Source: Bdellovibrionales bacterium
Lineage (GTDB): Bacteria; Bdellovibrionota; Bdellovibrionia; Bdellovibrionales; JAGQZY01
Reading direction: 5' to 3'
NCBI GenBank assembly: GCA_020435205.1
Contig: JAGQZY010000022.1
Location: 1 to 35,854 of the forward strand
DNA length: 35,854 nt
In this document: positions 1-24,204 of the stretch, in pieces
Layout: each line of letters begins with the position of its first letter
Numbering within the stretch: the first letter of the stretch is position 1
The notes under the pieces: generated by a model
Databases searched by the model: none
What the model was told of the DNA's origin: nothing
Seen by the model: the letters and a program-made list of their open reading frames with translations, nothing else
Program-made: the position numbers and the translations under genes

Positions 1-842
1 TCAAGAATCTCAATGGATTCAATTTGATTATGACGCTCAAGCTGGTCGGCAATTTCACGGCTATCAAAATCTCCATGAATTTTACCGAGAGGGATGTACC
101 CCAAGGCCAGCTTTGGATCAAAGATATCCATGTCCCATTTTTCTTTTAGCCATGTTGCCATTTGGTCTTTCTGACTATCCCCGCTGCTATCGCCCCAAAA
201 AAAGAGTTTAGCCCCTGCTTTATAGTTATACTGAGGGACAGGCCGTTGTTCCACTTTTTGCCAAAAAGCCACCGCAGGAGGAACTCCTGTAACCCCATAG
301 TCCAAATAGAGCCAACCTTGCTTTTGCTCTAAGGTAAATAATTGGTAATCACTTTCTTCAAAGGCCCAATTTGTTGGGTCCATGAACAGGGCATCAACAT
401 GAAATTTTCCAGGCTCGGCATAGATGCCCTCATAGCGATGGATCAATACATTGACATAAATCAGTGCTTCAACCATTTCGTGGGGCGCGGACCGTGAAGT
501 GAACTCGGGCCTTGGACTTAAAAATTCAAACTCCTCATGGAGTTTCATGAGATCCTCGTGGGTCATGTCAGGGTAAGTGGAACCCTTTATCCAGGGTTCG
601 CCTTTTGGCGCAAAGGAATTGACGATATCTATATTCCTCTGCATTTCTTCACGAATATTTTTTTCGTTTGTAAAACGCTGCCCATAGAAATGGTCTTGCC
701 GAATCTTTTGATTGCGATTCAACTCGTACTGCAGAACCTGTAGCCATCGTTCGCGAAAATCTCCTTCAAAAACATCATAGGTGAGTGAAAATTTTGACGT
801 GCTGTCAAGGTCTCTAAAATTGTAACGAACTTGATAGGCCAT
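1..842 (-). CDS. Hypothetical protein, 3' end cut by window edge
   Basis: An open frame runs leftward from an ATG at 842 to the window edge without a stop, giving 280 codons. It begins MAYQVRYNFRDLDSTSKFSL and continues with mixed charged and aromatic sequence, including WIKGSTYPDMTHEDLMKLH and HRYEGIYAEPGKFHVDALF. An AAGGTGG ribosome-binding site lies just before the ATG. There is no signal peptide or membrane segment at the start, so it is probably cytoplasmic. I do not recognise the family. It is divergent from the exported-protein gene at 1028, with about 185 bases between them. Coding is supported by the uninterrupted frame, the ribosome-binding site and natural-looking composition. The opposite-strand frame at 537-743 is a shadow. 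Confidence 0.8.
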   Translation of the reverse strand, partial: MAYQVRYNFRDLDSTSKFSLTYDVFEGDFRERWLQVLQYELNRNQKIRQDHFYGQRFTNEKNIREEMQRNIDIVNSFAPKGEPWIKGSTYPDMTHEDLMKLHEEFEFLSPRPEFTSRSAPHEMVEALIYVNVLIHRYEGIYAEPGKFHVDALFMDPTNWAFEESDYQLFTLEQKQGWLYLDYGVTGVPPAVAFWQKVEQRPVPQYNYKAGAKLFFWGDSSGDSQKDQMATWLKEKWDMDIFDPKLALGYIPLGKIHGDFDSREIADQLERHNQIESIEIL

Positions 843-5636: not shown

Positions 5637-6833
5637 TTGGAATCCATTGTCATTCTTTTTGCCGCACTGGGCTGGTTACTGTTCCTGTCTTTATTAGTGG
5701 TTTGGTTTCGCCATTACCGCAGTCTGATTCAGGTTCGTGAACAATTAAAAAGCAAAGAAGTCGAAGCCGAGTTCCAAAAGGCAGCATTGGTGCAGTTGAA
5801 AGACGAGATGAAGGGAACTTTTGAGAGTTTAGCTCAACAAACTTTGAAAGGTTCTAATGAGCAATTTTTAAAAATGGCAGAATTGCGTCTCAACCAGCAA
5901 AGTGAGTCAGCTCTTCATAATTTTGATAAAAGAAAAATGGAAATTAATAATATTGTTGAGCCACTTAAAGACACCTTGGGACAATTTTATAAAGAAGTGC
6001 AATCGATGGAGAAAGAGCGCCAGCGCTCCTACGCATTGGTGGAAACCGAGATAAAAAAAGTGGTGGAAAACAGTGCTGAGCTGTCAAAGGAAACACGAGC
6101 TCTTAAAGATGCTCTCAAAAAGCCCCACGTGCGGGGGCGCTGGGGCGAAGTCCAATTAAAAAATTGTGTAGAGCTGGCCGGCATGTCCGAATACGCCGAT
6201 GTGAGTTTCCAAGATTCTACTGATATTGATGGCAAACGCCTGATCCCAGACATGATTGTGAATATGCCAGGGGGGCGCAAAGTCATCGTGGATGCTAAAA
6301 CACCCATAGATGCCTTTTTATCATCATTAGAGGCCGACACCGAAGAACTCCGCAATGCCGAAATGCTTCGCCATGGAAAGCAGGTCAAAGAGCATGTGAA
6401 AAAACTATCTTTGAAAGCTTATGGTGAGGTTTTTGAAGATAGTGCCGACTTTACAGTGATGTTTCTACCCAATGAATCTTTTTTGTATGCTGCTCTAGAA
6501 ACCCAGCCTGACTTGGTTGAATATGCCATGGAGAAAAAGATTCTTTTAGCGACTCCTCCCACATTGGTTGGCCTACTTAAAGTGATTCGCTACGGTTGGA
6601 ACGAAGATAAGCTGGCAAAGAATGCCGAAGAGATTTCAAAAATTGGAACTGAGCTACATAAACGTCTTTCTGACTTTGTGGAAACCTTTGTGGATATCGG
6701 CAAAAGCATTGATTCTGCTCAAAAGAAGTACCAACAAGGGCTCAATCGACTCAATTCTCGGGTTCTCGTACAAGCCAAAAAGATGGAATCCCTTGGGGCC
6801 AAGAGCCATAAAGAGCTTCCGCTAGATCACTAA
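5637..6833 (+). CDS. rmuC: RmuC family DNA recombination protein
   Basis: This 398-residue protein has the RmuC layout. There is one N-terminal membrane helix (residues about 4-25, ending WFRHYRSL), a coiled coil (about 30-130), and then the RmuC domain. Hallmarks include KPHVRGRWGEVQLKN, PDMIVNMPGG, VIVDAKTPIDAF, MFLPNESFLYAALE and LLATPPTLVGLLKVI. RmuC has a nuclease-like fold and in Escherichia coli limits inversions at short inverted repeats. The start is a TTG with GGGGAGAG upstream, and the membrane helix begins immediately after it. The gene appears to be a single-gene unit. It is followed by an intergenic gap of about 200 bases that contains a 17-bp repeat. Confidence 0.93.
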   Translation: MESIVILFAALGWLLFLSLLVVWFRHYRSLIQVREQLKSKEVEAEFQKAALVQLKDEMKGTFESLAQQTLKGSNEQFLKMAELRLNQQSESALHNFDKRKMEINNIVEPLKDTLGQFYKEVQSMEKERQRSYALVETEIKKVVENSAELSKETRALKDALKKPHVRGRWGEVQLKNCVELAGMSEYADVSFQDSTDIDGKRLIPDMIVNMPGGRKVIVDAKTPIDAFLSSLEADTEELRNAEMLRHGKQVKEHVKKLSLKAYGEVFEDSADFTVMFLPNESFLYAALETQPDLVEYAMEKKILLATPPTLVGLLKVIRYGWNEDKLAKNAEEISKIGTELHKRLSDFVETFVDIGKSIDSAQKKYQQGLNRLNSRVLVQAKKMESLGAKSHKELPLDH

Positions 6834-6845
6834 TTCATCCACTTT

Positions 6846-6862
6846 GTTTCAAAGTGAGACAA
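6846..6862 (+). repeat. 17-bp dyad element, copy 1
   Basis: GTTTCAAAGTGAGACAA is identical to the sequence at 24188-24204. It contains a near-perfect inverted repeat, GTTTCA-AAG-TGAGAC. It lies 12 bases after the rmuC stop and about 120 bases upstream of the sigma-28-like promoter of the exported-protein operon. Here it also overlaps a second hairpin, CACTTTG-TTT-CAAAGTG (6840-6856), whose left arm the other copy lacks. Confidence 0.6.
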
Positions 6863-6984
6863 CAATTCTACTTTTTTAGCAGCTTCTTCAAAAACGAATT
6901 ATAATAAGGAGTGTGGGAAAGCTGCTCAATTTTATTCAGCTTTTTAAAAAAACAGCATTCTCAGAAAGTATGGTCGGCTTGGCC

Positions 6985-7012
6985 TAAAGTTTAGGGGACT
7001 TTAGACCGATAG
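6985..7012 (+). promoter_or_regulatory. Sigma-28 (FliA)-like promoter
   Basis: TAAAGTTT at 6985-6992 matches the enterobacterial FliA -35 consensus exactly. ACCGATAG at 7005-7012 matches six of eight positions of GCCGATAA. The spacer is 12 bases rather than the usual 11. Transcription would start near 7018-7020, leaving a short leader that keeps the AAGGGGGG ribosome-binding site before the GTG at 7038. Confidence 0.55.
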
Positions 7013-7037
7013 ATAATATAGACGCAAGGGGGGATCT

Positions 7038-7976
7038 GTGAAACTTGCGATATTGATAATCTTAATACCAACCTTGAGTTTGGGTGCCGGCCTGACCGAC
7101 GGTGATAACGTATTTGATACAGGAACTAACACGGGTACGGTAGACACCACTCCGCTACCGGCCGACAATGGCACCAATTTGGACACTGGCAATGATGGAA
7201 ACCTCGATAGCGTGGGGACGATGACCGAAACCGATTCTGGTGGTCGTATGAATGCCTCTCAATCCAAAGATGACTCTGGCAGTACACAAATGCTTGGCAT
7301 GATCATGGGTGCTATGTTTGCGGCCATGTGTGGTCCTCACAATCCTGCGGCTTGTGTGATGTCAGCTCTTTCTTTTATGGACGCCCTTGCATCTGGAAAA
7401 AACAAAGGGAACTCTATTGATTTTGAAAATAGTTTATCCCCAGATGGGACACCCTTGCCTGGCACCGAAAATGCTAGCGTTGAAGAGGCAAAAAAGCAGT
7501 TAGCAGCCCTTAAGAGTAAAGGCTTTGTTGCTAATGCGGATGGCTCGGTGACCGGACCTGATGGTACTCAGTATACTGCTGAAGATATGGCCTCTGCAGA
7601 AGATATGATGGCTAAGGGTATGTCGCCAGTTCAGGCTGCCGCAGGTATGGACGCTCTCGATAAAGTCAAAGATGAAGCCTCTGGTGCGCTCGACAAAGAA
7701 GTGAGCGATGCCAAAAAGAAAATTGCTAAAGCTGCTGCAAGTGGGGCCAGTGGTGGCGGTGGTTCAGGTAACGCAGCCACAATTATTATTGAAGATAGCG
7801 CTGACAAGGATCCCAACAAAACAAAGGGGAGAGGGCCAGCGAGCGAACTTGCCAAATTTTCAAAAAACTTTGGCGGTACGCCAATTGGAATTGCTCTTGC
7901 CGATATTTTCACAATTGTAAGAGAAAAATATAAAGAAAAAGATAAACAAAGCCAATTCATTAACAAAGAGTTTTGA
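7038..7976 (+). CDS. Exported low-complexity protein, first gene of a secreted-protein pair
   Basis: This 312-residue protein has a Sec signal peptide (MKLAILIILIPTLSLGAG). The start is GTG, with GGGGGG in the ribosome-binding position. After an Asp/Asn/Thr/Gly-rich segment comes a hydrophobic, Met/Ala-rich stretch with two cysteines (MLGMIMGAMFAAMCGP, residues about 90-105). A charged helical region follows, then a Gly/Ser linker (SGASGGGGSGN). The C-terminal block contains GRGPASELAKF and DIFTIVREKYKEK. That block shares GRGPAS and a D-(I/M)-(F/W)-x-(I/V)-x3-Y-K pattern with the next gene. The family is not recognised. One base separates it from the 7978 gene, so the two form an operon. Opposite-strand frames here are shadows. 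Confidence 0.85.
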   Translation: MKLAILIILIPTLSLGAGLTDGDNVFDTGTNTGTVDTTPLPADNGTNLDTGNDGNLDSVGTMTETDSGGRMNASQSKDDSGSTQMLGMIMGAMFAAMCGPHNPAACVMSALSFMDALASGKNKGNSIDFENSLSPDGTPLPGTENASVEEAKKQLAALKSKGFVANADGSVTGPDGTQYTAEDMASAEDMMAKGMSPVQAAAGMDALDKVKDEASGALDKEVSDAKKKIAKAAASGASGGGGSGNAATIIIEDSADKDPNKTKGRGPASELAKFSKNFGGTPIGIALADIFTIVREKYKEKDKQSQFINKEF

Positions 7977-7977
7977 T

Positions 7978-9111
7978 ATGAAAAATATGGGTCGACAAAT
8001 TTTAAGTGTAGTTTTATTAGCTTCCATGACTTTGCCTTTCCCAGCAATGGCAGATTCTGGATCAACAGACAAAAGCGGTGATTGTAACAAGTGGCTGCAA
8101 TCGGACTTAGATAAGGCATGTAAAGATAATCCTGCGATGAAAAACGGCCAAAACCAGCTCTCGAATGGAAAGGCTTTTATGAATGGTGGTAGTCAGATGA
8201 AAGACACCACGAAACAAACGACGACAGCGACGCAGCAAGGTGTTGCTGATGTACAAAAAGCCACATCCGAGTGTAAAGAGGCTGCACAAAAATGTGCGAT
8301 GGCCTGTGCTCACTCCATGCCGATCGAACAGGCTCAGCAAAAGGTGAATCAATGTATCGAGAAGAAAGATCAACAGGTAGCAAAGAATGATGGCATTTTG
8401 CAACAGCTCATGCAACTTCTCCAGGCGCTTGCTGGCCTCATGCAACAGCTCAATGGTGGTGGTGAAGACTCTACAGGTGAAGAGCCAAAACTTGCCGATG
8501 CTGCTGATGAAGATATGTGTAAAGAGGGTAACTCTTTGGGCATTGACCCCAAAAACTTGATTCAATGTGCGGGGACTTCTGATCCCATCGCTCGTCGTGG
8601 TGGGTTGAATGGCTCTACGGGTGTCCCAAGCACTGATGGTGGTGCCTACAATTCTTTATTAAATCCTTCTAATGCGGGCGAGCCTGGCGGCACTGATCAG
8701 GGTGTTAAAGCCGCAGGAGCAAATAGTAATAATTCGGGCGCAGGTGGCGCATTAGGTGCCTTTGGTTCGAGTGGTTCTAGTGATGGCTCGGCTTCTAGTG
8801 ATGGTGCTATTCAAAAAGCGAGTGCAGACATTGGCAGTGGATTTGGTGGCGGTGCTGGCGGCGGTTTTGGCAGTTTTGCTGGCGGCGGCGGCGGTCGAAC
8901 GAGTAGCGGTGGTCTTGCCTACGGCAGTAGTTTTTCTGACCCTTCAGCAAAGCCCGGAGCCGGCCTTAACAAGCGATTTGGTCTACCTAATAGCGGTGGT
9001 CGTGGTCCGGCTTCTGTAGGAGATGCCACCAATGGTCCTTTCCAAGATATGTGGGGAGTGATAACGAAAACTTATAAAAAGACTTCAGAGTCTATGTTCC
9101 ATCAGGAATAA
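7978..9111 (+). CDS. Exported glycine-rich, cysteine-containing protein
   Basis: This 377-residue protein has a signal peptide cleaved near AMADSGS. Residues about 30-125 are helical with several cysteines (CKEAAQKCAMACAHS is one cluster). A Gln/Leu-rich amphipathic stretch (LMQLLQALAGLMQQLNGGG) follows. Residues about 200-330 are a Gly/Ser/Ala-rich low-complexity region with runs of GGG. The C-terminal block has GRGPASVGD and DMWGVITKTYKK, which resembles the end of the 7038 protein. The start codon lies 1 base after the upstream stop, so the genes are translationally linked. The last 10 bases overlap the convergent anmK gene. The overall look is of a surface or secreted structural protein. 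No known domain is recognised. Confidence 0.85.
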   Translation: MKNMGRQILSVVLLASMTLPFPAMADSGSTDKSGDCNKWLQSDLDKACKDNPAMKNGQNQLSNGKAFMNGGSQMKDTTKQTTTATQQGVADVQKATSECKEAAQKCAMACAHSMPIEQAQQKVNQCIEKKDQQVAKNDGILQQLMQLLQALAGLMQQLNGGGEDSTGEEPKLADAADEDMCKEGNSLGIDPKNLIQCAGTSDPIARRGGLNGSTGVPSTDGGAYNSLLNPSNAGEPGGTDQGVKAAGANSNNSGAGGALGAFGSSGSSDGSASSDGAIQKASADIGSGFGGGAGGGFGSFAGGGGGRTSSGGLAYGSSFSDPSAKPGAGLNKRFGLPNSGGRGPASVGDATNGPFQDMWGVITKTYKKTSESMFHQE

Positions 9112-10193
9112 ACACTTCCCAGTAAAACCTTCTGTTCTGCCCCAGTAACCTGGGGTAGATGCACTTTTCGATTTAAAAAACGAGCCAAAGCCAAAAAGGC
9201 GATGAGGCTTCCTTCAAAGGCTTGGCTTGGCCATCCAAGCGCTTCGGAATTCAAAATTTCACAATCTGGTAAATGAAAGCCAATGCGTTCCATGAGGTAA
9301 GAGTTTTGTACACCTCCTCCGTAAAAATAAATCACCGGAGGTGTTTGCGGGCAAAGCTTTAAATAGGAGCTGGCAATAGAGGTTGCGGTCAGTTCGCAAA
9401 GCGTGGCCATTTGGTCTTCAAAGCTGAGTTTTTTAAATCCGATTCCTCCAAACTCATTAATGAAAGACAAGTTAAACTCTTCCCGCCCACAGCTCTTAGG
9501 AGGCTTTCTTTTAAAATAGGGGTGTTTTAGCATCGCCCGTACAATTTGAGGGTGGGGAAGACCACGGCTAGCAAAAATCCCATTGCGATCAAAGGCCTTA
9601 TTTTTTTTATTTTGGATCCACAAATCCATTAAAATATTGGCGGGGCCCGTATCAAAAGCCACCACATGGTTTGCGTTAAAGTAGCTAAGATTTGAAATTC
9701 CGCCCAAGTTGTGGAAGGCAAAGTTCTTTAACCCTTCAATCTGCCCCAGTTGTTTTTGGAAAAATGGTGCAAAAGGTGCGCCCTCTCCCCCTTGGGCGAT
9801 ATCTGCAGATCGAAAATCAAAAACCACGGGTCCCACCTGATGCAAAGAGGTTGGACATCCAATTTGCAAAGTGGCTCTTCGGCCCTGGTGGTGAACGGTC
9901 TGTCCATGCAAGCCGATCAGGTCCCACTTCCAATTAGCCGGCAGTTGTTGAATTTGCTTTTCATAGAGTTCGCCAAGGTCATAGTGAAGCAAAGATAAAT
10001 CATAGGTGGTTAATTTGTTATTAGCTGCCGCTAGCAAGCGAGAGCGAAGGTTTTTAGGTATCGACATTTGCTGGTGGCCTAGAAAACGGATCTGTGAAAA
10101 ATCCTCGCGCCCACGAATAAGGCAATAGTCAATAGCATCAATACTCGTCCCATTCATAATTCCAAGGACGTTATAGGTTTTTTTTGTGGGCAT
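9102..10193 (-). CDS. anmK: Anhydro-N-acetylmuramic acid kinase (AnmK)
   Basis: AnmK opens the 1,6-anhydro ring of anhydroMurNAc and phosphorylates it to MurNAc-6-phosphate, in cytoplasmic peptidoglycan recycling. The 363-residue length fits the family. The N-terminal ATP-binding loop is GIMNGTSIDAID, where most members have MSGTSLDGID. IGLHGQTVHH and VAFDTGPANILMD supply the sugar-binding region and the likely catalytic Asp. FYGGGVQNSYLMERI near the C-terminus is also typical. It is the last gene of a three-gene leftward operon, 12 bases after the nucleotidyltransferase gene, and its 3' end overlaps the convergent 7978 gene by 10 bases. In a MurNAc-salvage operon its product would have to be dephosphorylated before AmgK could act, as in Pseudomonas. 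Confidence 0.93.
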   Translation of the reverse strand: MPTKKTYNVLGIMNGTSIDAIDYCLIRGREDFSQIRFLGHQQMSIPKNLRSRLLAAANNKLTTYDLSLLHYDLGELYEKQIQQLPANWKWDLIGLHGQTVHHQGRRATLQIGCPTSLHQVGPVVFDFRSADIAQGGEGAPFAPFFQKQLGQIEGLKNFAFHNLGGISNLSYFNANHVVAFDTGPANILMDLWIQNKKNKAFDRNGIFASRGLPHPQIVRAMLKHPYFKRKPPKSCGREEFNLSFINEFGGIGFKKLSFEDQMATLCELTATSIASSYLKLCPQTPPVIYFYGGGVQNSYLMERIGFHLPDCEILNSEALGWPSQAFEGSLIAFLALARFLNRKVHLPQVTGAEQKVLLGSVYS

Positions 10194-13451: not shown

Positions 13452-15014
13452 TTAATCCATTTTGCGAAGCTTGCGCTTATCAAGGCCGTACTTTTCAACC
13501 TTCATAATAAGACCGGCACGACTGATGCCAAGTTCTTTGGCCAGCTTGGATTTGTTCCAGCCAGTGCGTCGAAGCCCTTCTTTAATCAACTGAAGCTCTA
13601 GATCCTCAATGGCATCTTTTAATTTGCCAGTCACCCGAGTGCCCTGAACTTTCGTTTTTTGGCCACCCTCGATAATTTTAGGTGAAAGCATATCGGCGGT
13701 GATCTTAGTCTCTTCACCACTAAGGACGACAATTCTTTCCATTTCGTTTTGAAGCTCGCGAACGTTACCGGGCCAGTGATAGTCATATAGTTTTTCAAGG
13801 GCACGTTTCGTTAATACTCGCTTACCAATCCCAGCTCTTTTACAAGCCAAGTCAATAAAGAATTCAGCAAGTAACGGAATATCCTCTTTTCTTTCGCGAA
13901 GAGGAGGAACGCGCAGGTTAATAACGTTGAGACGATAGAATAAATCTTCGCGGAAAGCCCCGGACTCAACCATTTCGCGAAGGTTTCGGTTGGTTGCTGC
14001 AACCACGCGAACATCAACTTTGCGACTTTCTAGTGCACCCACCGGGGTAAATGTTCCCTCTTGTAAAACACGGAGGAGCTTCACTTGCATTTGCGGGGAG
14101 GTGTCACCAATCTCATCAAGGAAAAAAGTTCCTTTATCAGCAATTTCAAAAAGACCTTTTTTATCTTTATGGGCTCCGGTAAAAGACCCTTTAACATGTC
14201 CAAAAAGTTCTGATTCAAGAAGATTATCGTTAAAAGCAGAGCAGTTTTGAATAACAAAAGGCTTATTCGATCGCGAGGAATTGTAGTGAATGGATTTTGC
14301 GATGAGTTCCTTACCTGTACCGTTTTCCCCTTGAATAAGTACGGTACTGTCGGCACCTTTAATTTTATCCAAAAGAGCGTACAGACTCTGCATAGCTTTT
14401 GATTTACCAATCATATTATCGTACTTGTATCGACTTCCTAACTCTTTGTTGAGTTCGCGAATGCGCTCCTCACGACTGGTGATCTCAAGGTGCAATGTTA
14501 CGATCTCTCTAGAGACGAGGTCGACAAGATCAATAAAGTGGGCGCGCTCGTTATCGTCTAGAAAGCGAATTTTTGAAACAGAAAAATCAATAGCATCTCG
14601 GGTTTCTCCGAGGGCGCTTAAGCGATCTCGGACCTCATCCAAGCGGTTAGTTTCAGAGGTGTCTTTGATAAAACCCATACCGACGACGGTGCCCATAAAT
14701 TCGCCATCTATGGTGATAGGGAAAATAGCCATATCTAAACCAGAAGTGGACCACTTGCGAATGGCAAACCGGTTATCGGAGTTTCTAAGATCGTTAATTG
14801 AAGCAGAAACCTCTTCAGAAAGAGTTTGGCGAGCGACCTCTTTATTAAGAAATTTGACTACGCAAGGGTTGATTAGATCTGCGCCGGAATCCTTATAGCC
14901 GCGGAGTTCACCCTTCTCATCGGTGAAAACCACGTCGATGTTCCACCAAGAGGAAAGAATCATTTTTAATTTTTTGATCACATGAATATGTTCAAATTCA
15001 TCCCAATTGATCAT
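13452..15014 (-). CDS. Sigma-54-dependent transcriptional activator (NtrC/Fis family)
   Basis: This 520-residue enhancer-binding protein has three parts. The N-terminal sensory region (about 1-190) may be PocR-like, with no phosphoacceptor receiver domain visible. The AAA+ domain has Walker A GENGTGKE, the sigma-54 contact loop GSFTGA (usually GAFTGA), Walker B FFLDEIGD, sensor VVAATNRN and arginine-finger region FREDLFYRLNVI. The C-terminal Fis-type helix-turn-helix includes NKSKLAKELGISRAGLIMKV. The ATG at 15014 is chosen because AAGGAG lies 7 bases upstream. An ATG 33 bases earlier has no such site. It would drive RNA polymerase-sigma-54 promoters elsewhere, since no clear target promoter was found here. 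It is divergent from the ABC exporter gene. Confidence 0.93.
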   Translation of the reverse strand: MINWDEFEHIHVIKKLKMILSSWWNIDVVFTDEKGELRGYKDSGADLINPCVVKFLNKEVARQTLSEEVSASINDLRNSDNRFAIRKWSTSGLDMAIFPITIDGEFMGTVVGMGFIKDTSETNRLDEVRDRLSALGETRDAIDFSVSKIRFLDDNERAHFIDLVDLVSREIVTLHLEITSREERIRELNKELGSRYKYDNMIGKSKAMQSLYALLDKIKGADSTVLIQGENGTGKELIAKSIHYNSSRSNKPFVIQNCSAFNDNLLESELFGHVKGSFTGAHKDKKGLFEIADKGTFFLDEIGDTSPQMQVKLLRVLQEGTFTPVGALESRKVDVRVVAATNRNLREMVESGAFREDLFYRLNVINLRVPPLRERKEDIPLLAEFFIDLACKRAGIGKRVLTKRALEKLYDYHWPGNVRELQNEMERIVVLSGEETKITADMLSPKIIEGGQKTKVQGTRVTGKLKDAIEDLELQLIKEGLRRTGWNKSKLAKELGISRAGLIMKVEKYGLDKRKLRKMD

Positions 15015-15236
15015 CGAAAAACTCCTTGAAGGTATAAAACTGTACACTTACTTATCGTCAAATAAGTCGACAACTTTATAGCTTTGCGAAGAATTTAGTC
15101 ACAGAATCTAAGTCATTGAATTTACTTATAAAAATGTGGCTGCCGTCTAAAGTAAAGTGACCCATTTTGGGAACTGTCAAAAGCACAGTCAAAAACTCGC
15201 TTGATGTTCCTCGGGAATTTTGACAAGTTGTTTGAC

Positions 15237-24184: not shown

Positions 24185-24187
24185 CCC

Positions 24188-24204
24188 GTTTCAAAGTGAG
24201 ACAA
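24188..24204 (-). repeat. 17-bp dyad element, copy 2
   Basis: This is an exact second copy of the sequence at 6846-6862. Read toward the gene it serves, it is TTGTCTCACTTTGAAAC and ends three bases upstream of the -35 element of the sigma-28-like promoter, a typical activator-site position. A related half-site, TGTCTCA, occurs at 24589-24595. Confidence 0.6.

Follow-up and report, generated by a model that had tools for sequence, protein, structure and literature searches.

A probable FliA promoter with N16 spacing ahead of the counterparts of Bd0150 and Bd0149 in a second family of the Bdellovibrionales

Attack-phase promoters of Bdellovibrio bacteriovorus are reported to share the FliA-type consensus TTAAG-N16-CCGATA, found in 92 out of 140 cases (PMC3627812), and the flp1/TAD promoter of strain HD100 is reported as FliA-responsive in E. 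coli (PMC5430801). The promoter Pbd0149 of the same strain also carries a FliA motif; it is described as robust in attack-phase cells, with an activity that stays flat for about 4 h once the cells are mixed with prey and is slow to rise (PMC12622784). Biofilm-forming strains are reported with a mutated Bd0149 (PMC11323537), and a transposon mutant of Bd0150 is listed in class 1, i.e., without attachment, killing and rounding, where it is grouped with TadC and PilT mutants (PMC6561027). In the literature on Bd0148, Bd0149 and Bd0150, no publication was found that connects the promoter, the biofilm mutation and the attachment mutant, and the main text of a proteome study mentions none of the three proteins (PMC12546842). 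The locus described here joins these three separate HD100 observations into one conserved operon.

This locus lies in a stretch of 35,854 nucleotides (contig JAGQZY010000022.1, hereafter the window) from a Bdellovibrionales bacterium, and its features are collected in Table 1. Taken as a whole, it is best explained as a FliA (sigma-28) promoter with N16 spacing that drives attack-phase counterparts of Bd0150 and Bd0149, a reading we consider probable; that it adds a further example of a known FliA control system is well supported. The sequence-only reading had proposed a two-gene operon of secreted proteins, which is borne out, as gene 2 starts 1 nt past the stop of gene 1 and both N-termini resemble Sec signal peptides by inspection.

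Table 1. Coordinates of the operon, its upstream elements and the adjoining marker gene (positions in the window).
Feature	Position	Strand	Basis or remark
Palindrome TGTTTCAAAGTGAGACA, candidate operator	6845..6861		sequence match, 1 mismatch to TGTCTCANNNTGAGACA
Sigma-70-like site TTAGCA-N18-TATAAT, possible second promoter	6876..6905	+	10/12
Sigma-28 -35 element TAAAGTTT	6985..6992	+	8/8 against the consensus
12-nt spacer AGGGGACTTTAG	6993..7004	+	between -35 and -10
Sigma-28 -10 element ACCGATAG	7005..7012	+	6/8; core CCGATA intact, 6/6
Predicted transcription start (approximate)	7018..7020	+	usual -10 to +1 distance
Putative ribosome-binding site AAGGGGGG	7026..7033	+	sequence inspection
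Gene 1, exported protein of 312 aa, corresponding to Bd0150 of HD100	7038..7976	+	profile, synteny
Gene 2, Gly-rich exported protein of 377 aa, corresponding to Bd0149 of HD100	7978..9111	+	profile, synteny
AnmK (anhydro-MurNAc kinase)	9102..10193	-	first gene of peptidoglycan-recycling cluster; synteny marker

The E. coli sigma-28 consensus is TAAAGTTT-N11-GCCGATAA. Direct reading of positions 6985-7012 confirms the earlier counts of eight matching positions in the -35 element and six out of eight in the -10 element, where ACCGATAG lacks the G and the A that flank the consensus core. The box TAAAGTTT-N12-ACCGATAG ends 26 bp ahead of the GTG at 7038, inside the 204-bp gap that separates this codon from the end of rmuC at 6833. 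No other stretch of the window matches the N12 form with up to two mismatches; at up to three, two matches occur vs. 0.55 expected. When the gap was resampled with a Markov model, an equally good match with a spacer of 11 or 12 arose in about 1 of 10,000 trials. The spacer and its neighbors also fit an extended pattern, TWAAG-N7-GACYTTNG-N-CCGA, which recurs at orthologous and flagellin promoters and was composed with the window's own site in view. A perfect 7-bp inverted repeat, CTAAAGT-N7-ACTTTAG, spans the -35 element and the spacer (6984..7004); by eye, it is absent from the boxes of the relatives. A second FliA-like site, TAAAGTTG-N11-GACGATAA with two mismatches, occurs on the minus strand at 15052-15078, directly ahead of a sigma-54 activator gene (13452-15047) whose HD100 counterpart has a similar site.

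The spacer had been described as one base longer than consensus. This is correct with respect to the E. coli form, but not as a weakness: a defect in spacing is ruled out, given that N16 is common among Bdellovibrionales (in relatives of the operon, in related genomes and at HD100 flp1). In the window's own genome, TAAAG-N(4..30)-CCGATA gives 56 matches, of which eight fall at N15 and five at N16, the spacing of the window, while 25 further spacings share the remaining 43 (P ~6e-5 for N15 and N16 together). As the total of 56 is level with that of the reversed control (60), only the peak in spacing is informative. Raw pattern counts were rejected as evidence, TAAAN(13,17)CCGATA being no commoner in the genome than its reversed control (47 vs. 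71). Across 59 genomes, TAAAGTTT-N(2..30)-CCGATA occurs 136 times, with 23 matches at N12, 17 at N13 (the window's spacing) and the remaining 96 distributed among 27 further spacings (mean 3.6). Of the 17 N13 matches, three are nearly identical copies from a single genome; with these and the window itself set aside, 13 are left (P 9e-5). Flagellin genes with a recognizable box have N15 in the nearest relatives of the window, and further flagellins in Bdellovibrionaceae have N16 plus the GACYTTNG element. At two further loci (L178 and L180), subtilase genes are preceded by a FliA-type box whose spacer fits the extended pattern, and one of these subtilases also has a PilZ domain.

The attack-phase FliA promoters of B. 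bacteriovorus resemble the box in the window in their -35 and -10 elements, N16 spacing, short leader and exported product. They differ in their -35 sequence (TTAAG, vs. TAAAG in the window), and the window belongs to an organism of another family. Since this family is part of the same order, we infer attack-phase control by orthology, and both transcription and stage specificity of the operon are to be read in this sense. The HD100 flp1/TAD promoter shares TAAAG-N16-CCGATA at about 50 bp from the start codon and has a similar imperfect palindrome upstream, whereas its spacer sequence is another one and it drives pilin and Tad genes. In gene content, the likeness is with bd0149-bd0150 itself, where counterpart genes follow an N16 FliA box ahead of the first gene and the spacer contains the GACTTT element. 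The differences are a swapped gene order (gene 1 comes first in the window), the HD100 box being TTAAG-N16-CCGAAA with CCGAAA as its -10, and the upstream neighbor, which is a TadE/G-like gene in HD100 and rmuC in the window.

The correspondence with Bd0149 and Bd0150 draws on synteny, profiles and a published codon. Gene 1 is found at E 2e-29 with a profile built without the window's family, and gene 2 at E 4.6e-8 with a profile built without the window's genus; once the whole family is omitted, the profile gives no match for gene 2. The pair lies beside genes for AnmK, an NTP transferase (MurU-like) and an AmgK-like protein, while its HD100 counterpart is surrounded by MurU-, AmgK-, NamZ- and NagZ-like genes (by inspection), such that both share peptidoglycan-recycling surroundings. 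In HD100, a 101-aa ORF spans 96873-97178, such that its c.127 falls at 97052 and agrees with the published Bd0108 breakpoint, and the relative of gene 2 (134263-135723) has GGT as codon 256, as required by the Bd0149 mutation c.767G>T (G256V) reported there (PMC11323537). Glycine occupies codon 256 in two out of 33 nearby ORFs of at least 256 aa, and of these two, the gene 2 relative alone also has a FliA-like box upstream. From these agreements, we infer that gene 2 is the counterpart of Bd0149 and that the next ORF, the relative of gene 1, is Bd0150. Neither protein has a significant family match at Pfam or NCBIfam cut-offs, Tad domains included, and gene 1 matched no solved structure among the PDB sequences. 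The AlphaFold models (pLDDT 43.6 and 37.7) are too poor for a fold search. A lone paralogue of gene 1 is present in the same genome (L063:3779-4606, contig G000:C18), with no gene 2 partner on the stretch of contig seen.

Relatives of gene 1 were found in 12 of 19 genomes around the window and in 35 of 41 genomes of the Bdellovibrio family. This amounts to 46 genomes, one being common to both sets, of which 42 were scored (G064, G071, G066 and G075 were left out). A relative of gene 2 partners gene 1 in most genomes that have gene 1; the order is gene 1-gene 2 in the window's family and gene 2-gene 1 elsewhere. For each scored genome, the 160 bp ahead of the first gene of the pair were searched for T[AT]AAG-N15/16-CCGAT[AG], allowing one mismatch. 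A FliA-like box precedes the operon in 19 out of 42 genomes, compared to 6 of 149 control genes (Fisher 5e-10, a value that overstates independence since the genomes are related), and the N16 form precedes it in 18 vs. 3. This contrast is conservative, as the controls include some likely true FliA promoters, e.g., the one before the sigma-54 activator. In the remaining 23 genomes, no box within one mismatch is present ahead of the operon, and FliA control is thus not universal for it. The FliA gene itself is encoded in the window's genome (TIGR02479 over cut-off; G000:C156:51153-51827). With the -35 element, the -10 core, the lineage spacing and the FliA gene all in place, the site is assigned to the sigma-28 class, for which a FliA-dependent start about 7 nt past the -10 is predicted. 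The claim that a sigma-28-like promoter places these genes in the attack phase thereby gains support from the FliA gene, the N16 boxes at orthologous operons, flp1 and Pbd0149, and FliA control of this operon is indicated beyond the Bdellovibrio family.

The absence of the box from those 23 relatives would also suit a different origin of the transcript, in which the sigma-70-like site of Table 1 or read-through from rmuC mainly drives the operon, which would leave the FliA-like box as a relic or a chance match. The sigma-70-like site lies within the gap, matches at 10 of 12 positions, and no terminator is listed in the gap after rmuC. Such matches are frequent, however, with eight in 2.5 kb vs. 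3.0 expected, whereas the FliA spacing and position are conserved in distant genomes and the chance of a FliA box in the gap is about 1e-4; we consider this explanation improbable.

Under the FliA reading, RNA polymerase with FliA would begin near 7019 in motile cells and yield an mRNA with a short leader that encodes the two exported proteins. If HD100 is taken as a guide, the operon would be expressed in the motile, prey-seeking stage and fall silent when FliA is off. The exported proteins may then act at the cell surface in attachment to prey or surfaces, perhaps together with the Tad (type IVb) pilus. This link to the pilus is suggested because a TadE/G-like gene (PF13400) precedes the pair in many relatives. 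Relatives of this gene occur in 19 out of 19 genomes; in the window's genome, it is located several kb away from the core of the Tad locus and not before the pair, and the Tad locus of this genome has no such FliA box within one mismatch. Taken alone, the surface role of the two proteins is a possibility that we rate somewhat short of probable. FliA control is classically flagellar, and the proteins could accordingly be related to the flagellum or its sheath rather than serve as attachment factors, with FliA control being real nonetheless. Gene 2 does show a weak match to FlgN, but at E 0.041 it is below cut-off and this identity was rejected. Both the reported placement of the Bd0150 mutant beside TadC and PilT mutants with regard to attachment (PMC6561027) and the Tad-type neighbor of the pair in many relatives speak against a flagellar function, which we regard as improbable.

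Upstream of the box, the palindrome is possibly a candidate operator of an undescribed regulator. Two matches at up to three mismatches occur in the window vs. 1.4 expected, which on its own is within chance. Within 300 bp upstream of the operon, TGTCTCA-N3-TGAGACA is present at up to three mismatches in 39 of 42 genomes (17 of 144 controls) and at up to two in 24 of 42 (5 of 144 controls), a wider distribution than that of the FliA box. Among 19 genomes, 18 have the exact core, with 138 copies altogether, compared to two copies of the reversed control. These numbers would fit a main switch formed by the palindrome and its regulator, with FliA being optional in some lineages. Yet the distance between palindrome and FliA box varies from touching to more than 120 bp, a FliA box is nearby at only seven of the 40 exact sites examined (28 of which are intergenic), and some sites could be RNA hairpins located where the upstream gene ends. 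We consider such a palindrome-led switch possible but on balance unlikely. Several sites sit between divergent genes, which favors a DNA operator over a 3' hairpin, and the flanking genes often look exported, although a crude test gives a modest contrast (29/46 vs. 49/119, P 0.015). Tentatively, palindrome and FliA may form two layers of control over an order-wide surface attachment system, with the operator lying before many genes for exported proteins; the palindrome offers a candidate operator through which exported proteins of this order may be regulated. Among publications that mention Bdellovibrio together with the half-site sequence, none deals with the palindrome, as judged by title. 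A second TGTCTCA-N3-TGAGACA-like site is located at 24187-24203 of the window.
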